From contig JAATFE010000506.1 of assembly GCA_015655365.1 (NCBI GenBank), forward strand, positions 1 through 11,597: a DNA stretch of 11,597 bases, written 5' to 3'. This stretch comes from Terriglobales bacterium. Lineage in GTDB: Bacteria; Acidobacteriota; Terriglobia; Terriglobales; Acidobacteriaceae. The position numbers were made by a program, and so were the translations under genes. Each line of letters opens with the position of its first letter. Within the stretch, counting starts at the first letter, position 1. Of this stretch, positions 571 through 9,406 are shown in pieces. The notes below the pieces were generated by a model that was given only the letters and a program-made list of their open reading frames with translations, made no database searches and was not told the DNA's origin.

Positions 571-2358
571 TTGAGACAATTCCGATTACACATGCTTTTA
601 CCCGAGTATTCCCTACCTACCCAAGCTACTCCCTCGCCATCGAAGCGGCGATTCTGTCCCAGGTCCTTTTGCGCCGCGGTTCTCGCCGCTTTCGCCCTGG
701 CATTGCCCGCAGCCGCCGGCGCGCAGCAGGGTCCTATTTTGCTGGATGCCATGACCACGGAGTTGCACCGTGCCTTTACGTCGCTCGGCAAGCAAGCTCC
801 CGGCAAGCAGGAATCCGGCCAGCAGTTACCGCCTTACTTTCTGAGTTATGCCGTGAGCGATGCCAGCGCTGTCTCGATCCGGGCGCAGTTTGGCGCGCTG
901 GTCGATAGCTCGGCCAATCGCGAGCGCATCGCCGACGTGCAGGTGCGCCTGGGCGACGCCAAGCTCGACAATACCCATGGCACTCATCGCGGCACAGCGG
1001 TCAAGAGCCTGCAACTACCTCTGGGCGACGACCGCGAAGCATTGGGCCGAGCCCTGTGGCTCGCCACCAATGCGGGCTACGGCAATGCGCTCGATAACTA
1101 TCTGAAAGTGAAGACCGAGGCGCAGGTACGCGCCAAGGAAGAGGACTCGTCGCCCGACTTCAGCCAGGAAGCCCCGCAGACCTATCTGGGCAAGCCGGCT
1201 CCCGTGGTGACGGTGGACAAGGCGGCGTGGGAGCAGCGGGTGCGGGCGCTCTCCAAAATCTTCCGCGAGTTCCCCGACGTTTACCAGAACATCGTGATGC
1301 TGACGGCGCAGAACGAAACCGACTACTTTGTCTCGTCGGAAGGCTCGCGCGTCGTGGCTCCTCACCAGCAGGCGCGGGTGGTGGTGTTTGCCGTGACCAA
1401 GGCCGAAGACGGTATGGATCTCTTCCGCGCGCAAACCTTCGAAGCCGAGACGGTCGAAGGCCTGCCCGCGCAGCCCGAGTTGGAAGCGGCGATTCGCGAA
1501 CTGGGCAAGAGCCTGGAGGCGCTGCGCAAGGCCCCGGTCACCGAGCCTTTCGATGGACCTGCGATCCTTTCCGGACGCGCGGCGGCGGTCTTCTTCCACG
1601 AGGTGCTGGGCCACCGGCTGGAAGGCCAGCGCCAGCGCGGCGACGAAGAGGGCCAGACCTTTACCAAGGAACTGAACAAGGAAGTGCTGCCCACCTTCCT
1701 CTCCGTGGCCGACGACCCCACCCTGACGACCTTCGGCAAAACCTGGCTCAGCGGCACGTACGAGTACGACGACGAAGGCCAGAAGGCGCGCCGTGTGGAC
1801 CTGATCCAGGACGGCGTGTTGAAGACCTTCCTCATGTCGCGGCTGCCCATCGCCAGCTTTGCCGCCTCCAACGGCCATGGCCGCGCGCAAACCGGCCGCA
1901 TGCCCACCGGGCGCCAGGGCAACTTGATTGTGACCTCGACCAAAACCGTATCCGACGCCGAATTGCGCAAGCAGTTGATCGACGAAGCCAAGAAGCAGGG
2001 CAAGCCGTTCGGGCTCTACTTCGAAGACATTTCTTCCGGCTTTGCCGTCACCACCCGCAGTTCGCCGCAAGCCTTCTCCGTGGTTCCGCTAGTGGTTTGG
2101 CGGGTTTATGTGGACGGCCGCCCCGATGAGTTGGTCCGCGGCGTCAGCATCGTGGGCACGCCTCTCGCTGCGATGAAGCGCATCCTGGCTACCAGCGACA
2201 AGAGCGAAGTTTTCAACGGCGAGTGCGGCGCGGAGTCGGGCACGGTCCCGGTCAGCGCCGTGGCTCCGGCCATGCTGCTGAGCGAGATGGAAACCCAGCG
2301 CCAGCCGCAGAGCACAACCCGTCCGCCGATCCTGCCGATTCCCGGCGCAAAACAGTAG
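571..2358 (+). CDS. Exported TldD/PmbA-family metalloprotease with intact metal site
   Basis: 595 residues from the TTG (588 from the ATG at 592). The C-terminal half carries the TldD signature: HEVLGH (HExxxH) at 343-348, followed by a long conserved block (DDPTLTTFG, EYDDEGQKARRV, AASNGHGRAQTG) and the sequence GECGAESG with Cys552. In E. coli TldD two His and one Cys bind the metal and the Glu acts in catalysis; the equivalents here are H343, H348, C552 and E344. Cytosolic TldD/TldE degrades unstructured peptides and matures microcin B17. This protein differs in having a signal peptide: a basic n-region, a hydrophobic core near 34-48 (AAVLAAFALALPAAA) and an AxA-type site before QQ, so it should act outside the cytoplasm. 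It is followed by a motif-less paralogue at 2448. The last codons and stop lie inside the cagt repeat. Substrate unknown. The family call is firm; the start is less so. Confidence 0.9.
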   Translation: MRQFRLHMLLPEYSLPTQATPSPSKRRFCPRSFCAAVLAAFALALPAAAGAQQGPILLDAMTTELHRAFTSLGKQAPGKQESGQQLPPYFLSYAVSDASAVSIRAQFGALVDSSANRERIADVQVRLGDAKLDNTHGTHRGTAVKSLQLPLGDDREALGRALWLATNAGYGNALDNYLKVKTEAQVRAKEEDSSPDFSQEAPQTYLGKPAPVVTVDKAAWEQRVRALSKIFREFPDVYQNIVMLTAQNETDYFVSSEGSRVVAPHQQARVVVFAVTKAEDGMDLFRAQTFEAETVEGLPAQPELEAAIRELGKSLEALRKAPVTEPFDGPAILSGRAAAVFFHEVLGHRLEGQRQRGDEEGQTFTKELNKEVLPTFLSVADDPTLTTFGKTWLSGTYEYDDEGQKARRVDLIQDGVLKTFLMSRLPIASFAASNGHGRAQTGRMPTGRQGNLIVTSTKTVSDAELRKQLIDEAKKQGKPFGLYFEDISSGFAVTTRSSPQAFSVVPLVVWRVYVDGRPDELVRGVSIVGTPLAAMKRILATSDKSEVFNGECGAESGTVPVSAVAPAMLLSEMETQRQPQSTTRPPILPIPGAKQ

Positions 2359-2430
2359 ACAGTAAAACAGTAGTCAGTTAACAGTTGTCAGTTAACAGTG
2401 GTCAGTGGTCAGTAGTCAGTTAGTTGTCAG
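2351..2430 (+). repeat. Degenerate tandem repeat (cagt-type) between the two Tld genes
   Basis: About 80 bp consists of imperfect copies of a roughly 14-base unit, aacagt-w-gtcagtt, decaying into 7-base half units (ggtcagt, agtcagt). The first copy contains the last codons and TAG of the upstream Tld gene. The last copy contains a TTG (2424) that would be an in-frame alternative start for the downstream gene. No hairpin with a T-tract is apparent, so it does not look like a terminator. Polymerase slippage could change the copy number. Confidence 0.8.
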
Positions 2431-2447
2431 CAAAAGATAGAGGCAGA

Positions 2448-4118
2448 ATGAACCCGATTCGACCGATTGCGAAATTCGCTGGAGCAGGCATTCTTGCCGC
2501 TCTTCTGGGCGGCGCTTGCCTGAACGCTACAGCGCAGCAAACCCGCGCCGACGCCGAAAAGGACCCGATCCTCAAGGCGATGCTCGAAGAGCTGGACCGC
2601 AGCAAGACCCAGCTTCAGTTGAAGGGCTTCGAGAAGCCGTTCTTCATCCAATACCGCATTGAGGATGTGGAAAGCTACGAGACAAAAGCGGAGTTTGGCG
2701 CCAGCGAGGGCTCCTCGCACAGCCACCAGCGCGTGGCCCGCGTCACCGTGCGGGTGGGCGACTACAAAACCGACAGCTCCGGGAGCCGGACCGAGGGCGG
2801 ACTGCAAATGGCGGCGCTCGACGACGATCCGGTCGCGTTGCGCTCGGCGCTGTGGGCAGCCACGGACATGGCCTACAAGAATGCGCTCTCCGCCTACGCG
2901 CAAAAGCAGGCTGCACTGAAACAGGTGCAAACCCCGCCGCAGGCCGACGACTTCAGCCAGGAAAAGCCGGTCGTTTCGCTGGAGGAGCCGCTCCGTTTGA
3001 AGCTCGATGAAGCTGCCTGGGCAGACCGCGTGGCTAAAGACAGCGGCCTCTACCGTACCGATGCGACCGTGAAAGCCGGCCAGCGCGACGTGCAGTACGC
3101 CACTTCCGCGTTCAATGCCCGCGTAACCACCACGTGGTTTGTCACCAGCGAAGGCGCCATCGTGCGCAAGTCGGCCTCCGGCTACCAGGAGGCGTTCGGC
3201 GTGGGCACGCAAGCCGCCGACGGCATGAGGCTCGACCGTTCCTATGCCTCCACCGGCTCCTCGCTCAAAGATCTGGACGAGCCCGCGGCCTTCCAAAAAC
3301 ACGCGGTCGAGTTGATCGCCTCGCTGACCGATCTGCGCAATGCGCCGCTTGTCGAGGAGGAATACCACGGCCCAGTGTTGCTCAGCTCCGATGCCGCCTC
3401 CGAGGCTTTGCGGCTGCTGGTGGGCAGTGGAGTCACGGCCACGCGACCCCAGCTCGGCACCGAGGCCCGCACCAATGGGCCATTTGCGTCGAGCTATCAT
3501 GCGCGGGTGCTGCCGGAGTTTCTCGACGTCGTCGACGACCCCGGTCTGAAGACCTATGCCAGCAAGGCGCTGGTCGGCGCTTACAGCGTGGACGACGAAG
3601 GCGTTCCGGCGCAGGCGGTGAAACTGGTGACTGCCGGCCGGCTGGAGAACTACCTCATCGGCCGCGAACCTGTCCGCGACTTTTCCCAATCCAACGGACA
3701 CGCGCGCGCCGGAGTAGCCGCCACGGCCCGTCCCTCAATCGGCGTACTGCAAGTGACCTCGCGCGAAGGCCTCTCGGACGAAGAGTTGAACCGCAAGCTG
3801 CTGGAGATAGCCAAGGATCGCGGCCTCAAGAGCGTCTATTCTGTGGCGACTTTGGGCACTGGGCTAACGCCGCGGCTGCTCTATCGCGTGAGCCCCGATG
3901 GCAAGCGCGAACTGGTCCGCGGCGCCGCGCTGGAAGATCTGGACCAGCGTGCGTTGCGTTCCGGTGTGGAAGCTGCGGGCAAAGATTTATGGGTTGCGAA
4001 TTACTTTAACGAGGTGCCGGAAACCGTGCTGGCCCCCGCGCTGCTGCTGGGCGACGTGACCATTCGCCGCGCCAACGAGAAGAACGACAAGCTGCCCTTT
4101 TATCCGCCGCCGACGTAG
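2448..4118 (+). CDS. Exported TldE/PmbA-like paralogue lacking the metal-binding motif
   Basis: 556 residues from the ATG at 2448, which has AGAGG four bases upstream. An in-frame TTG at 2424 lies in the tandem repeat and is less likely. Residues 1-29 form a signal peptide ending ATA before QQ. The protein aligns along its length with the upstream gene: DDFSQEKPVVSLEEP near the middle, then DVVDDPGLKTYASKALVG, YSVDDEG and FSQSNGHARAG. Where the partner has HEVLGH this protein has RLLVGS (322-327), and the C-terminal Cys region reads YFNEVPETV without Cys. It therefore lacks every expected metal ligand, as TldE lacks them beside TldD in E. coli. The inferred role is a non-catalytic partner of the 571 gene in an extracytoplasmic heterodimer or heterohexamer. 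The pair probably arose by tandem duplication and is likely co-transcribed. Confidence 0.85.
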   Translation: MNPIRPIAKFAGAGILAALLGGACLNATAQQTRADAEKDPILKAMLEELDRSKTQLQLKGFEKPFFIQYRIEDVESYETKAEFGASEGSSHSHQRVARVTVRVGDYKTDSSGSRTEGGLQMAALDDDPVALRSALWAATDMAYKNALSAYAQKQAALKQVQTPPQADDFSQEKPVVSLEEPLRLKLDEAAWADRVAKDSGLYRTDATVKAGQRDVQYATSAFNARVTTTWFVTSEGAIVRKSASGYQEAFGVGTQAADGMRLDRSYASTGSSLKDLDEPAAFQKHAVELIASLTDLRNAPLVEEEYHGPVLLSSDAASEALRLLVGSGVTATRPQLGTEARTNGPFASSYHARVLPEFLDVVDDPGLKTYASKALVGAYSVDDEGVPAQAVKLVTAGRLENYLIGREPVRDFSQSNGHARAGVAATARPSIGVLQVTSREGLSDEELNRKLLEIAKDRGLKSVYSVATLGTGLTPRLLYRVSPDGKRELVRGAALEDLDQRALRSGVEAAGKDLWVANYFNEVPETVLAPALLLGDVTIRRANEKNDKLPFYPPPT

Positions 4119-4813: not shown

Positions 4814-5608
4814 TTAGTCCAGCCGCGTCAAGAAGGCCTCGCCCTCGGCAGGACGCAGTCGGCGGGCAATTGTCTCGGCCATCTCGCGGTCGTCGCCCTG
4901 GGGACGGATACGGACCCAGTAGCTGTTCTCGCCGGGGAACTCGATCACATTCGCGCTCGGATACTTGCGCAAAAGCTGCTTCTTCAAGCCCAGGGCCAGT
5001 TCCTCGCTCTTGAAGGCTCCGATCTGCACGCACCAGCGGCCGCCGGTTTCGATTGGCTTGGGCGTCTGGTAAACATCGAGACGCACGTTCACCAGGCCCG
5101 CGCGATAAACGCCCGTAGCCTTGGCCGAGGCAACGGTGAGATCGAGGATTCTGCCGTCCACAAACGGCCCGCGATCGGTGATGCGCATGGCGCTCGATTG
5201 GCCGGTCTTGATATTGGTCACCACCACCAGCGAACCCATGGGCAAGGTACGGTGCGCAGCGGTTTTGGCGCTGTCGTCGAAAACTTGTCCGTTGGCGGCC
5301 TTACGCCCCTTGTACGGCGCGGTATACCAGGTGGCCAGCCCTACCTCGGTCAAAATCGGCCTGTGGGTCGCCACATAATCCAGGTCTTCCGGGCTCACGC
5401 CGCCGGGAGGAACCGGCGTGATGGGAATCCGGCCCAGCGGTGCGCTCTGCGCCACGGGAGGCAGCATCTCTGGCTCCGGCGCAACCGCCTGAGGCGGGGG
5501 CGGAGCCGGTTTGCGGTGATGGCCGCAGCCGGAAACAGCCAGCAGCAGCGCCAACCCTACCGGGGCAAGCGAGCGCCACACGTTCCTGCCTTGCAGGGAA
5601 AAGGTCAT
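4814..5608 (-). CDS. rlpA: RlpA-family septal lytic transglycosylase lipoprotein (DPBB + SPOR)
   Basis: 264 residues. A signal sequence ends in the lipobox V-S-G-C with Cys28 as lipidation site, then a Pro-rich linker (about 32-70). The double-psi beta-barrel domain spans about 88-182: GLATWYTAPYKGRKAANGQVF, TAAHRTLPMGS with His119, and RITDRGPFVDGRILDL with Asp145, the His and Asp conserved in the RlpA active site. A SPOR domain follows at about 190-256 (CVQIGAFKSEELALGLKKQL). RlpA proteins cleave glycan strands lacking stem peptides, and SPOR domains bind such denuded glycan at the division site. The start ATG overlaps the stop of the upstream 87-residue gene by four bases (ATGA), implying translational coupling. 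An AAGGA lies 12 bases upstream, rather far to act alone. Length and domain order are normal for the family. Confidence 0.93.
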   Translation of the reverse strand: MTFSLQGRNVWRSLAPVGLALLLAVSGCGHHRKPAPPPPQAVAPEPEMLPPVAQSAPLGRIPITPVPPGGVSPEDLDYVATHRPILTEVGLATWYTAPYKGRKAANGQVFDDSAKTAAHRTLPMGSLVVVTNIKTGQSSAMRITDRGPFVDGRILDLTVASAKATGVYRAGLVNVRLDVYQTPKPIETGGRWCVQIGAFKSEELALGLKKQLLRKYPSANVIEFPGENSYWVRIRPQGDDREMAETIARRLRPAEGEAFLTRLD

Positions 5609-5868
5609 CGTGCGTGCGAATCCTTATCTGGGCTGGAAGGCGGGTTGGGTGTCTGGCCGGTGGACTTCTCGAAGCGGTCGGCAAGAGTGTGCAGCGTATC
5701 GGCCATATTGCGCAAAGCGGAGATCGACTCCTGGCGCACTTGCGGAACCACCGCGCTATTCACATAAGCAATGGTGTGGCGCAGCTCCATTTCGATCAGT
5801 TCGACAGCCTCTTCGATGCGCCTGCCTACTCCGCCCGCACCAGAACCCGGAGGGGGATACGTACTCAC
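5605..5868 (-). CDS. Small helical protein of unknown function, coupled to rlpA
   Basis: 87 residues from a GTG at 5868. The GTG is chosen because a perfect AGGAGGT lies 7 bases upstream (5876-5882); an upstream in-frame TTG at 5886 would put that element inside the gene. The N-terminus is Pro/Gly-rich (STYPPPGSGAGGVGRR). A probable long helix follows, about 17-70, with regularly spaced hydrophobic residues (IEEAVELIEMELRHTIAYV, ISALRNMADTLHTLADRF), then a disordered hydrophilic tail. There is no signal peptide or membrane segment, so the product is likely cytoplasmic and oligomeric. Its TGA overlaps the rlpA ATG. I do not recognise the family. The operon suggests a link to envelope or division, which is inference only. 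Confidence 0.75.
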   Translation of the reverse strand: MSTYPPPGSGAGGVGRRIEEAVELIEMELRHTIAYVNSAVVPQVRQESISALRNMADTLHTLADRFEKSTGQTPNPPSSPDKDSHAR

Positions 5869-6178
5869 AAAAGTAACCTCCTGCAAGTAACCTCGTTAAA
5901 GGTAACCTCATCTTCAGTCTGCGGGGTGCGCCGTGGCGCGTCAATGGAGGAAGCCGCGAATGTGCCGCAATCGTCAATAGGGAATTTCAGTTCCCCATGG
6001 CTTAAAGCTCCGCGCTTTGTTATGGTCGCGGTTGACCTTCCCTTGAGAATCTACGTCGAACTTCCATAGAGAGCATTCCCGGCGGATTTTTCCCGGCGTC
6101 GATTCCGATGCGGGGATCCGTTGAGGTCAACAGGAAATGCCAGGAAGGACGCAGCTTTAACCAGCGAGGGCCAGGTCA
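5869..6178. other. Divergent intergenic region, rlpA operon / exported protein
   Basis: This gap must hold promoters for both directions. Besides the GAGGTTAC array, it has an inverted repeat GGGAA-TTTCAG-TTCCC (5980-5995) and AAAGC-tccgc-GCTTT (6004-6018). For the minus strand, TTGACG (5944-5939) lies 17 bases from CAGACT (5921-5916), a fair -35 with a poor -10. For the plus strand, TTGAGA (6043-6048) lies 16 bases from CATAGA (6065-6070). Neither promoter is convincing. No gene is apparent here. Confidence 0.3.
5873..5909 (-). repeat. Three direct copies of GAGGTTAC before the rlpA operon
   Basis: GTAACCTC (GAGGTTAC on the minus strand) occurs at 5873-5880, 5887-5894 and 5902-5909, spaced 14 and 15 bases. 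The copy nearest the gene overlaps the AGGAGGT ribosome binding site. The array may be a repeated operator, or a duplicated ribosome-binding segment. Confidence 0.55.
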
Positions 6179-7093
6179 TTGCAGAGCCGTTCAGCAAGGT
6201 TTGACGGATACGGAAGCGTCGGCAGCCTCAGCCGGATGCAGCGGGCCAGCATTTCGAGCGCGGCGCTGATTCTGGGCGCCCTGCTTTGGTCTGCCAACAT
6301 CGCATGGGCAGAGCAGGCAGAAGGCAGCAAGTCCGACCTGCCGGAAGCTCCCCAGCCGCAACCTGCGATCCTGGCCGGCTCCTCGGCGACCCTCACCGTT
6401 TCCTGCCCCGCCAGAGGCAGTTCCAATCCCCCCTCAGCCACGGCAACCGCTCCAGCCTCTTGCCTGCCTCCCCCGCCCACCAACTGGTACCACCGTTTCA
6501 TCACCGGCCCACAGGTCAAACCCCTGACGCCCAAGGAAAAGGCCCGTCTGGCCATGCGCAATGTGCTTGACCCCTTCAACGGCCTCACCATTCTGGCCGA
6601 TGCCGCCATTGCCGTAGGCTCCGACCCTGACTCCGCCTATGGCCCCGGCATGGCCGGATTCGGGCGCAATGTGGGCGTCAGCTTTACCCAGGACATCACC
6701 GGTGAGTTCTTTGCCACGTTTCTGGTTCCCTCAGTTGTTCACCAGGACCCGCACTACCATCGCATGCCCAACGCCACCATTCCGCGCCGGGTGCGTCACG
6801 CCATCGGCCAGGTGGTGTGGACCCAGGGCGACGACGGCAAGGGCATGGTGAACTACGGCGACATTGTCGGCGCAGCCATCAGCGACGAGGTCAACAACCT
6901 CTACGTGCCGGGCCGCAAAACCAATCTACCCGCCAGCGCCTCGCGCTGGGGCATCGGCCTGGCCACCGCCCCCATCGACAACTTCGTCTCCGAGTTCCTG
7001 CCCGACGTTGCCCGCCACATCCACGTCCAGATCGTCGTCATCCAGCGTGTCATCAACACGGTAGCCAAGACCGACGGACCGGCGCAGCCGTAG
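6179..7093 (+). CDS. Exported protein of unknown function with HQDPHYHR motif
   Basis: 304 residues from TTG 6179, which has GAGGG 8 bases upstream, or 285 from ATG 6236, which gives a more ordinary signal peptide but has no ribosome binding site. The hydrophobic core (SSAALILGALLWSANIAWA) ends in an AxA site before EQ, so the protein is exported. A low-complexity Pro/Ala/Ser stretch (about 48-102) precedes a conserved-looking domain: LTPKEKARLAMRNVLDPFN, SAYGPGMAGFGRN, SFTQDITGEFF, then HQDPHYHRMPNA (188-199), VWTQGDDGKGMVNYGDIVG and ISDEVNNLYVPGR. I recall similar sequences as uncharacterised proteins in Acidobacteriota, but no assigned activity. The clustered His188, Asp190, His192 and His194 could bind a metal, which is inference. 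It precedes the radical SAM gene by 219 bases on the same strand; co-transcription is possible but unproven. Confidence 0.85.
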   Translation: MQSRSARFDGYGSVGSLSRMQRASISSAALILGALLWSANIAWAEQAEGSKSDLPEAPQPQPAILAGSSATLTVSCPARGSSNPPSATATAPASCLPPPPTNWYHRFITGPQVKPLTPKEKARLAMRNVLDPFNGLTILADAAIAVGSDPDSAYGPGMAGFGRNVGVSFTQDITGEFFATFLVPSVVHQDPHYHRMPNATIPRRVRHAIGQVVWTQGDDGKGMVNYGDIVGAAISDEVNNLYVPGRKTNLPASASRWGIGLATAPIDNFVSEFLPDVARHIHVQIVVIQRVINTVAKTDGPAQP

Positions 7094-7312: not shown

Positions 7313-9406
7313 ATGGGCAAAGCGACAAAGTATGCCGAGCTGGCAGTTGTCTACGCGGCAAAGGGCGCGTGGGCCGTATTTGAGCGGTTGAACCGCATCA
7401 GCCCCAACCCGGGATTCACTCCCAAGTGGAGCGACAAACCCCTGCTCAAGAGCTGGGAGAAGGAAAAGCCCCCGCTGGGATGGCCGCGCACCACGGACTC
7501 TCTTTGTCCCAAGTGCGTACCCGAGATTCGCAAGCAGATTCTGGAAGGCAAGCTGCCCATGGAAGTCCTGCTCAATGAGAAAGTGGGCGAAATCAAGGCC
7601 CAGATCATCGAGCGCGACGGCAAGATCCTGATGGTCAAGGACTGCCCCAAGCACGGGCACTTCGAAGACGTCATGTCGATCGACACGGCCTTCTTCAAGC
7701 ATCTGGAAGAGAGCTTCCCCGGCCGCGACATCCGCTTGCACGGCACGGGCGACGAAAAGCTCCACCACCACGGCACCTCGACCCTGACCCACGGGCGCGG
7801 CTCGGTGCTGACCATCGATCTGACCAACCGCTGCAACATGATGTGCGATCCCTGCTTCATGGATGCCAACCAGGTTGGTTTCGTCCACGAACTGACGTGG
7901 GATGAGATCAAGACCATGCTCGACAACGCCGTCACCGTCAAACCCAAGCGGCAGATGAGCGTCCAGTTCTCCGGCGGCGAGCCGACCCTGTCGCCCTACT
8001 TCCTCGACGCGGTCGCCTATGCCCGCAAGGTGGGCTTCAACAGCGTCCAGGCTGCCTCCAACGGCATCGAGTTCGCCAAGAGCAAGGAACTTTGCCGCGC
8101 CGCTGCCGAAGCCGGTCTGCGCTACGTCTATCTCCAGTTCGACGGCATCGGCAACGCCGCCAACTCGCACCGCAAGGTGGGCAACCTGTTTGACGTGAAG
8201 TTGCAGGCCATCAACAACCTGCACGACGCCGGCGTGGACATTGTGCCGGTCACCACGATCATCAACGGCATCAACAACGAGCAGGTGGGCCACATCATCC
8301 GCTTCGCCCTGGACAACCCCAAGCGGATCAGCTTCCTCAGCTTCCAGCCGGTCAGCTTCACCGGCCGCGACGAGGACATCTCCGACGAGCGCCGTCACGC
8401 CCAGCGCTACACCCTCAGCCACATGGCCCACGACATCAAGGACCAGATGGGCTTTGGCGAGCCGGCGCGCGATTGGTTCCCCATCAGCTTCATGTCCATC
8501 TTTACCGACTGGGCCGATCTGGTTCACGGACCCAACGCCGAGTGGGGCCAGCTCAACTGCGGCTGTCACCCAAACTGCGGCGTCGGCATGGCCCTCATGA
8601 TCGATAAGGAAACCAAGGAAGCCGCTCCCGTCACCGCCTTCCTCAACATGGACAAGGTCTCGAAGGATCTGGCCAAGGTCAACGATGCCGCCCGCGGCCG
8701 CTGGCTCTCGGTCATCGGCTTCTCGCTGGCGCTGTTGCGCAACTACGATCCGTTCAAGTCGCCTACCCACTTCAAGATCACCGACATGCTCAAGAAGATG
8801 GACAAGACCTTCGGCGCCACCGGCAGGAGCTATGGCAGCGTCTCGGGCGACCGCACCATGGACGACATCAAGAAGCGCCGCGCCGACCGCTGGAACTTCC
8901 TGTTCATCGCCGGCATGTGGTTCCAGGATCTCTGGACATACGACTTCCGCCGCACCGAGCAGTGCACCATCCCCTATGCCACGCAGGAAGGCGAAATCAG
9001 CTTCTGCGCCTACAACACCGGCATCGGCTGGCGCAACATCATCGAGAAGATGCACATGACGGCCACCCTCACCAAGTGGTACGAGGAGCACGGACGCCAT
9101 GAGATCTTCGCTGGCGGCAAGAAGGTCAACATGCCCGAGGTGGGCCACGATCTGACCCTCAACATGGCCGACGTGAACGCCGAGGCCAATCACACGCTCG
9201 ACAACCTGGGCATTGCCAAGAACGCCCGCGAAGAGAAGCTGCGCGCCCGCGATTCCAAGGTGATCAGCGATGCGGAAAACGCCCGCATGGCCAAGCTCTA
9301 TCGCGAGCACGTCCTGGGCGAAAAGCCGGTCGAAGGCATGGTGCCTCTGTCCTCCATCGCCCCCGCCAAGCCCGTCGAAGAGAAAGAACCCGTCGCCGGA
9401 GACTAA
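7313..9406 (+). CDS. Radical SAM enzyme, tetraether / membrane-spanning lipid synthase-like
   Basis: 697 residues, ATG with AAGGAGA about 9 bases upstream. The N-terminus has a short amphipathic helix (AELAVVYAAKGAWAVFERL), then a Cys motif CPKC (65-68) and DCPKHG (Cys111), as in the MJ0619/Tes group. The radical SAM core has C174-x3-C178-x2-C181 for the catalytic 4Fe-4S cluster and SGGEP (220-224) for SAM binding. Further Cys at 416, 418 and 422 (NCGCHPNCG) and at 551 and 565 suggest auxiliary clusters. Archaeal Tes joins lipid tails by carbon-carbon bonds; bacterial relatives are implicated in membrane-spanning diabolic-acid-type lipids, and iso-diabolic acid is a major acidobacterial lipid. 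The inferred role is tail-to-tail coupling of membrane lipids. No transmembrane helix is seen; association would be peripheral. Codon use is strongly biased to C- and G-ending codons, hinting at high expression. Radical SAM membership is certain; the lipid role is likely, not proven. Confidence 0.9.
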   Translation: MGKATKYAELAVVYAAKGAWAVFERLNRISPNPGFTPKWSDKPLLKSWEKEKPPLGWPRTTDSLCPKCVPEIRKQILEGKLPMEVLLNEKVGEIKAQIIERDGKILMVKDCPKHGHFEDVMSIDTAFFKHLEESFPGRDIRLHGTGDEKLHHHGTSTLTHGRGSVLTIDLTNRCNMMCDPCFMDANQVGFVHELTWDEIKTMLDNAVTVKPKRQMSVQFSGGEPTLSPYFLDAVAYARKVGFNSVQAASNGIEFAKSKELCRAAAEAGLRYVYLQFDGIGNAANSHRKVGNLFDVKLQAINNLHDAGVDIVPVTTIINGINNEQVGHIIRFALDNPKRISFLSFQPVSFTGRDEDISDERRHAQRYTLSHMAHDIKDQMGFGEPARDWFPISFMSIFTDWADLVHGPNAEWGQLNCGCHPNCGVGMALMIDKETKEAAPVTAFLNMDKVSKDLAKVNDAARGRWLSVIGFSLALLRNYDPFKSPTHFKITDMLKKMDKTFGATGRSYGSVSGDRTMDDIKKRRADRWNFLFIAGMWFQDLWTYDFRRTEQCTIPYATQEGEISFCAYNTGIGWRNIIEKMHMTATLTKWYEEHGRHEIFAGGKKVNMPEVGHDLTLNMADVNAEANHTLDNLGIAKNAREEKLRARDSKVISDAENARMAKLYREHVLGEKPVEGMVPLSSIAPAKPVEEKEPVAGD

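Follow-up and report, generated by a model that had tools for sequence, protein, structure and literature searches.

Widely used proxies for temperature and pH are based on brGDGTs, lipids presumed to be built from iso-diabolic acid. In bacteria, Mss of Thermotoga maritima is a verified membrane-spanning lipid synthase, as reportedly shown by Sahonero-Canavesi in 2022. Expressed in E. coli, Mss couples fatty acid tails (cited in PMC11604127), its AlphaFold models reportedly share the Tes architecture (PMC13274423), and one study reports homologs in 11 of its 97 acidobacterial MAGs (PMC11868695). The archaeal Tes MJ0619 has four metal centres: (i) a rubredoxin-like iron (C9, C12, C33, H36), (ii) the RS cluster, (iii) [4Fe-4S]N, ligated by C73, C77, C80 and a His, which we read as H83, and (iv) [4Fe-4S]C, whose ligand Met439 is labile, the M439A variant being still active, and at which the C-S intermediate is located (PMC9433317). 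For bacteria, the available portion of PMC11868695 describes Tes activity as unconfirmed and the acidobacterial pathway as unclear.

The gene studied here lies in an 11,597-nucleotide stretch of DNA of a soil acidobacterium, referred to as the window, and is a single intact ORF, from ATG to stop, encoding the protein P0001 (Table 1). The motifs listed in the preliminary description are all present (CPKC 65-68, DCPKHG 110-115, CNMMCDPC 174-181, SGGEP, and Cys 416/418/422 and 551/565); the Pfam matches to Radical_SAM (E 5.7e-19) and the HMPTM zinc ribbon (E 2.1e-13), and the first PDB match, GDGT-MAS 7TOL/7TOM (MJ0619; E 6.5e-58), are far beyond chance. The strong codon bias reported for the gene was also found, its Nc of 30.8 being the lowest among the nine genes measured, a ranking within the window only, and its GC3 of 0.88 the second highest of nine. 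The acidobacterial host that had been proposed agrees with the nearest named homologs, which are from Acidobacteriaceae (MAG L003, 88%; Terracidiphilus sp. L004, 88%, and P0002, 86%), and Acidicapsa dinghuensis provides the sister row of P0001 in the tree (L019); on these grounds we assign the window's genome to Acidobacteriaceae. Homologs named Rhodanobacteraceae, Verrucomicrobia and Bathyarchaeia were seen at 78-81% identity, and these names are probably binning errors. In the host genome, which is 67% complete, there was no second strong Tes-family match, the next two scoring 55.5 and 45.7 bits; in a plasmid search, 35 records matched and none reached 80% query coverage.

Table 1. Features of the enzyme gene in the window (residue numbers refer to P0001 unless MJ0619 is named)
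Feature	Position	Strand	Remark
Radical SAM enzyme, Tes-like clade lacking the N-terminal auxiliary cluster motif	7313..9406	+	697 aa, P0001
N-terminal helix, residues 2-28 in the model	7313..7396	+	No counterpart in MJ0619
Rubredoxin-like domain, residues 57-130, with insert 71-92	7481..7702	+	
Rubredoxin-like CxxC: C65, C68 (MJ0619 C9, C12)	7505..7516	+	Alignment
Rubredoxin-like CxxH: C111, H114 (MJ0619 C33, H36)	7643..7654	+	Alignment
Former N-terminal auxiliary cluster region, residues 131-164	7703..7804	+	No Cys
Radical SAM motif CX3CX2C: C174, C178, C181	7832..7855	+	Motif present
CxCx3C: C416, C418, C422, C-terminal cluster domain	8558..8578	+	C422 = MJ0619 C338
M535 (labile Met439 ligand of MJ0619)	8915..8917	+	Alignment
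C551 (MJ0619 C455)	8963..8965	+	Alignment
C565 (MJ0619 C470)	9005..9007	+	Alignment
C-terminal extension, residues 603-697	9119..9403	+	Variable; low confidence at its end

The earlier assignment of the protein to the MJ0619/Tes type stands as far as sequence, predicted fold and catalytic positions are concerned, and fails with regard to the full Tes layout and the Tes cut-off. The best NCBIfam match of P0001 is the Tes equivalog NF045702, with 318.1 bits against its curated cut-off of 450 bits; the model for the TrsS radical SAM (seleno)protein, NF045646, gives 213.9 bits, with its best stretch at residues 93-380, far under the TrsS cut-off of 490. P0001 is 29% identical to MJ0619 and resembles it in its predicted structure, which has the overall fold of 7TOL/7TOM, in the radical SAM and rubredoxin-like sites, in three Cys and the labile Met of the C-terminal domain, and in ten SAM-site positions, but it differs by an additional N-terminal helix, the insert at 71-92 and a C-terminal extension. 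The N-terminal helix is mildly amphipathic, with a hydrophobic moment of 0.45-0.52 in 18-residue windows starting at 11-17, a value not above that of some core helices; that it faces the membrane is a guess. The C-terminal part, previously left unassigned, indeed has no MJ0619 counterpart beyond residue ~603, is shorter in several distant clade members, and is the least conserved of the compared regions (mean majority residue 0.45 versus 0.85 in the radical SAM core). The predicted model falls below pLDDT 50 from residue 682 on, and also at 180-187 and 348-351, adjoining the SAM site.

With regard to the metal centres, residue equivalences were taken from an alignment of P0001 with 12 archaeal Tes. 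The rubredoxin-like C-x2-C ... C-x2-H of Tes (C65, C68, C111, H114) is present, and the C-terminal auxiliary cluster retains C422, C551, C565 and M535 at the places of C338, C455, C470 and M439, so that C551 and C565 are probable ligands of this cluster. The CxxxCxxC plus His that marks the N-terminal auxiliary [4Fe-4S] of Tes, on the other hand, is absent: K149, H153, S156 and T159 of P0001 stand at MJ0619 C73, C77, C80 and H83. Since P0001 contains no Cys at all between residues 111 and 174, the absence of the [4Fe-4S]N motif is independent of the alignment.

The same holds well beyond P0001. When CxxxCxxC was sought in the 45 residues ahead of the RS motif, it was present in 119 of 120 database matches of MJ0619 (archaeal where named, many being nameless), the sole exception, P0146, being a 434-aa sequence without the zinc ribbon, and in 24 of 25 distinct acidobacterial Tes rows, among which L167-L169 were counted by identity (L167 also by the tree) rather than by the cut-off, and the exception, L091, is a short gene call. 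By comparison, none of 350 window-type rows contained it; these comprise 120 + 120 database matches together with 110 distinct locus rows, a 111th being without the RS part. Conversely, CxCx3CG occurs in 349/350 window-type rows versus 0/145 other rows; there are no identical pairs between locus and database rows, although many rows are close kin and the counts are not independent. C416 was found only in the window clade; MJ0619 lacks both C416 and C418, and archaeal Tes have Cys at position 418 in 8/12 and at 416 in 0/12. At the level of the sequences, loss of the N-terminal auxiliary cluster motif is thus a trait of the whole clade, so that P0001, like its clade, has motifs for three of the four Tes metal centres and departs from the full layout. 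The accessible parts of the open-access literature yielded no mention of such a lost-cluster variant.

Grouping with another radical SAM subfamily, by which the preliminary description was open to challenge, did not occur. Our tree had 62 rows, namely 32 of the window type, 15 acidobacterial Tes, 12 archaeal Tes and 3 outgroup rows, the latter long; 10 database rows of alignment A1 were omitted as near-copies. The window type forms a single clade with support 100/100 and a stem length of 1.93 changes per column, and shares one branch with 13 of the 15 acidobacterial Tes rows against the archaeal rows (100/97), the remaining two, L087 and L088, grouping with the archaea. An origin of the window clade inside the 13 acidobacterial Tes gave an AU p of 0.341. 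Given so long a stem, the substrate or the reaction may be a new one, and losing the cluster might have altered the chemistry.

P0001 is probably a Tes-like synthase of membrane-spanning lipids that makes iso-diabolic acid; it is best described as a well-marked, widespread variant of Tes, most likely serving Acidobacteria as an iso-diabolic acid synthase. The sequences establish homology, conserved positions and the clade with its distribution, and the model a predicted fold; metal content, substrate, product and C-S intermediate are inferred. In the proposed mechanism, the 5'-deoxyadenosyl radical, formed at the C174/C178/C181 cluster, would take a hydrogen from the branched end of a phospholipid iso-C15 tail, the C-terminal [4Fe-4S] cluster (C422, C551 and C565, M535 being the spare ligand) would store the resulting carbon radical as a C-S adduct, and iso-diabolic acid would be completed when a radical on a second tail displaces the adduct and forms the C-C bond. 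Ester-linked phospholipids are probably the main substrate, which would give iso-diabolic acid bound as an ester; in hosts with an additional, ether-forming enzyme, this coupling could also supply brGDGT synthesis.

The lipid records of cultured strains bear on this assignment. Iso-diabolic acid had been called typical of the lineage, and it is a major fatty acid in the strains measured: it accounts for 26.8-49.2% in five Occallatibacter/Terracidiphilus strains, Terracidiphilus gabretensis having a further 16.9% of a likely isomer (PMC12935467), and for 11.8-30.4% in six Edaphobacter strains, for which the available part of the paper gives no glycerol ethers thereof (PMC11354219). The values for E. 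modestus and E. aggregans are 30.4% and 26.4%, provided that the table of that paper lists the strains in the order of its text (PMC11354219). In E. modestus DSM 18101, the one Tes-family protein above 53 bits is of the window type, and PF09989, a domain of PlsA/Ger that also marks other enzymes, was not found; E. aggregans DSM 19364 combines the window type with PF09989 and a partial Tes-like frame of 402 aa (202.5 bits). Further Tes-like frames were seen in Acidicapsa (256 bits) and in an E. lichenicola strain (178 bits). Such additional frames weigh against the assignment, as does Solibacter usitatus, which is recorded as making brGDGTs, with iso-diabolic acid not detectable, in the accessible text of PMC10087280. 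With few named strains to go by, the P0001 clade is nevertheless a strong candidate for producing the iso-diabolic acid of these bacteria.

The same records bear on the foremost alternative, that a Thermotoga-type Mss couples the tails and P0001 carries out some other C-H functionalisation on these lipids, such as cross-linking within the chain or methylating iso-diabolic acid at C5/C6. The long stem and the lost metal-centre motif would suit such a change, methylated iso-diabolic acid is reported in some Acidobacteria (PMC13274423), and the Mss homologs in acidobacterial MAGs mentioned above (PMC11868695) would supply a coupler. We nevertheless regard it as unlikely, since P0001 retains the C-domain Cys and Met and the SAM-site positions of the coupling enzyme, and since the gene is present in E. 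modestus and E. aggregans, members of a genus in whose measured strains plain iso-diabolic acid is a major fatty acid. As for Mss itself, the T. maritima genome has no match to the Tes or TrsS model at 1e-20, and P0001 is for this reason probably outside the close family of Mss, as judged from model matches rather than from the Mss sequence; at 1e-10 T. maritima does match the Tes model, as do 14/14 control genomes. An Mss of the Thermotoga type may also occur in the genomes that have the window type.

Across the phylum, P0001 has matches at 1e-60 in 206 of 396 genomes. For 21 of the 206 the match is Tes only (best E 1e-70 to 1e-98, Tes score over the cut-off), and the window type is present in 185 genomes, the weakest at 1e-111 (G330); 38/396 genomes are over the Tes cut-off and 15 have both. 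Genomes were not split by Tes-model E-value, as a third type (L178) scores in the band of the window clade. In the window's own family, all 44 genomes match P0001 with E = 0. Among 41 relatives, 35 match at 1e-30, six of which (family f88) have only a 36-37% Tes type, and the window type is found in 29 (23/25 in the genus, 4/14 in f88 and 2/2 others), or in 18 of the 22 good-quality genomes; the 14 genomes of f88, which belongs to the same order, divide into 4 with the window type, 6 with only the 36-37% Tes type and 4 with neither, a pattern that counts against the proposed role. When 15 named genomes were scanned with the Tes model, one exceeded the cut-off.

This distribution weighs against the reading in which P0001 is Tes in function and makes brGDGTs mainly from diether lipids, as the archaeal enzyme does. 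Homology speaks for it, as does E. aggregans, which makes brGDGT-Ia (PMC13274423) and has the window type and PF09989, with nothing over the Tes cut-off. However, P0001 itself is under that cut-off, and PF09989 occurs in 28 of 38 genomes over it versus 23 of 170 with only the window type (Fisher 6e-13, kinship ignored). The domain is present in 15/15 genomes with both types, in 38/188 with neither, and in two of nine named genomes, E. aggregans and an E. lichenicola strain. Acidobacterial Tes over the cut-off (e.g., L116:7821-9521, 574.5 bits) keeps CxxxCxxC, lacks CxCx3CG and goes with PF09989, and in two genomes (L176 and L177) such a gene adjoins a PF09989 gene; PF01869 is also present in L176, the one of the two scanned for it. 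We therefore hold this reading to be very improbable. In L176:1949-8144 and L177:66-6073, the gene over the Tes cut-off lies directly upstream of a BadF/DUF2229 (Ger/PlsA-like) gene with a 401-aa companion, a set that is possibly a bacterial tetraether operon.

The existing literature appears to contain both groups. Zeng 2022 lists one E. aggregans Tes homolog (32%, 4e-61) and stronger homologs, of 42% and 40%, in Koribacter and Solibacter, and proposes a role of bacterial Tes homologs in brGDGTs (PMC8941075). In our comparison with the 12 archaeal Tes, the E. aggregans window-type protein is 29.9-32.4% identical and the acidobacterial Tes L113 39.8-44.6%; as the identities sit at the same two levels, the homologs printed there probably span both clades.

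Several gene arrangements were observed along the way. In L116:7821-12001 a window-type gene is the immediate neighbour of a Tes gene on the same strand, and in L117 and L118 the two are a few kb apart with an opposite-strand gene between them; all three genomes belong to the window's family and have PF09989 elsewhere. The third Tes-like type (L178:13680-15182, 346 bits to the Tes model; L179:18267-19817; L180:14560-15864; same-genus genomes) adjoins an MMPL exporter gene (Pfam, L178), with, by eye, dehydratase, FabG and glycosyltransferase genes nearby and a DUF2229 gene ~10-14 kb away. Two apparent cases of Tes proper near Ger (G406, G413) were rejected, the genes being of this third type. 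In the window, ORF304 (6179-7093, +), a 285-304 aa protein with a signal peptide by eye and no Pfam/NCBIfam match at 0.01, stands upstream of the enzyme gene, as in many Acidobacteriaceae loci. An RlpA-like protein with a SPOR domain (4814-5608, -) and a 93-aa protein (5605-5886, -) form a block that is likewise syntenic upstream in many of these loci, L116-L118 included, and a TldD/PmbA-like pair (571-4118, +) scores far under the TldD/PmbA model cut-offs. A function could not be drawn from an operon: in most distant loci (comparison anchored in 31/40) the enzyme gene had neither ORF304 nor the divergent RlpA/small-protein block next to it, and we therefore regard both as synteny.

The weakest alternative, a pterin methyltransferase (7,8-dihydro-6-hydroxymethylpterin dimethyltransferase), is suggested by many database names and by the Pfam zinc ribbon name HMPTM, but is scarcely credible, as MJ0619 was first annotated in the same way and the available part of its structure paper does not corroborate that activity and describes a hydrophobic pocket (PMC9433317).

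To conclude, bacterial Tes homologs are already known and a role in brGDGTs has been proposed for them (PMC8941075); what appears to be new, going by sequence, is a separate bacterial branch of Tes relatives in which one of the four metal centres appears to be missing. With the acidobacterial homologs divided into two clades, a one-gene, one-product prediction follows that is testable in cultured Edaphobacter. A more specific proposal, for which we see the case for and against as evenly balanced, is that the clade is a synthase in its own right, widespread in Acidobacteria, which would make ester-linked membrane-spanning lipids with three metal centres where Tes has four, having discarded the surface [4Fe-4S]N, perhaps because many hosts live in air, and rebuilt its catalytic domain with CxCx3C. 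Compared with archaeal Tes, a cluster lost in nature hints at the one metal centre, out of four, that the coupling reaction can spare.
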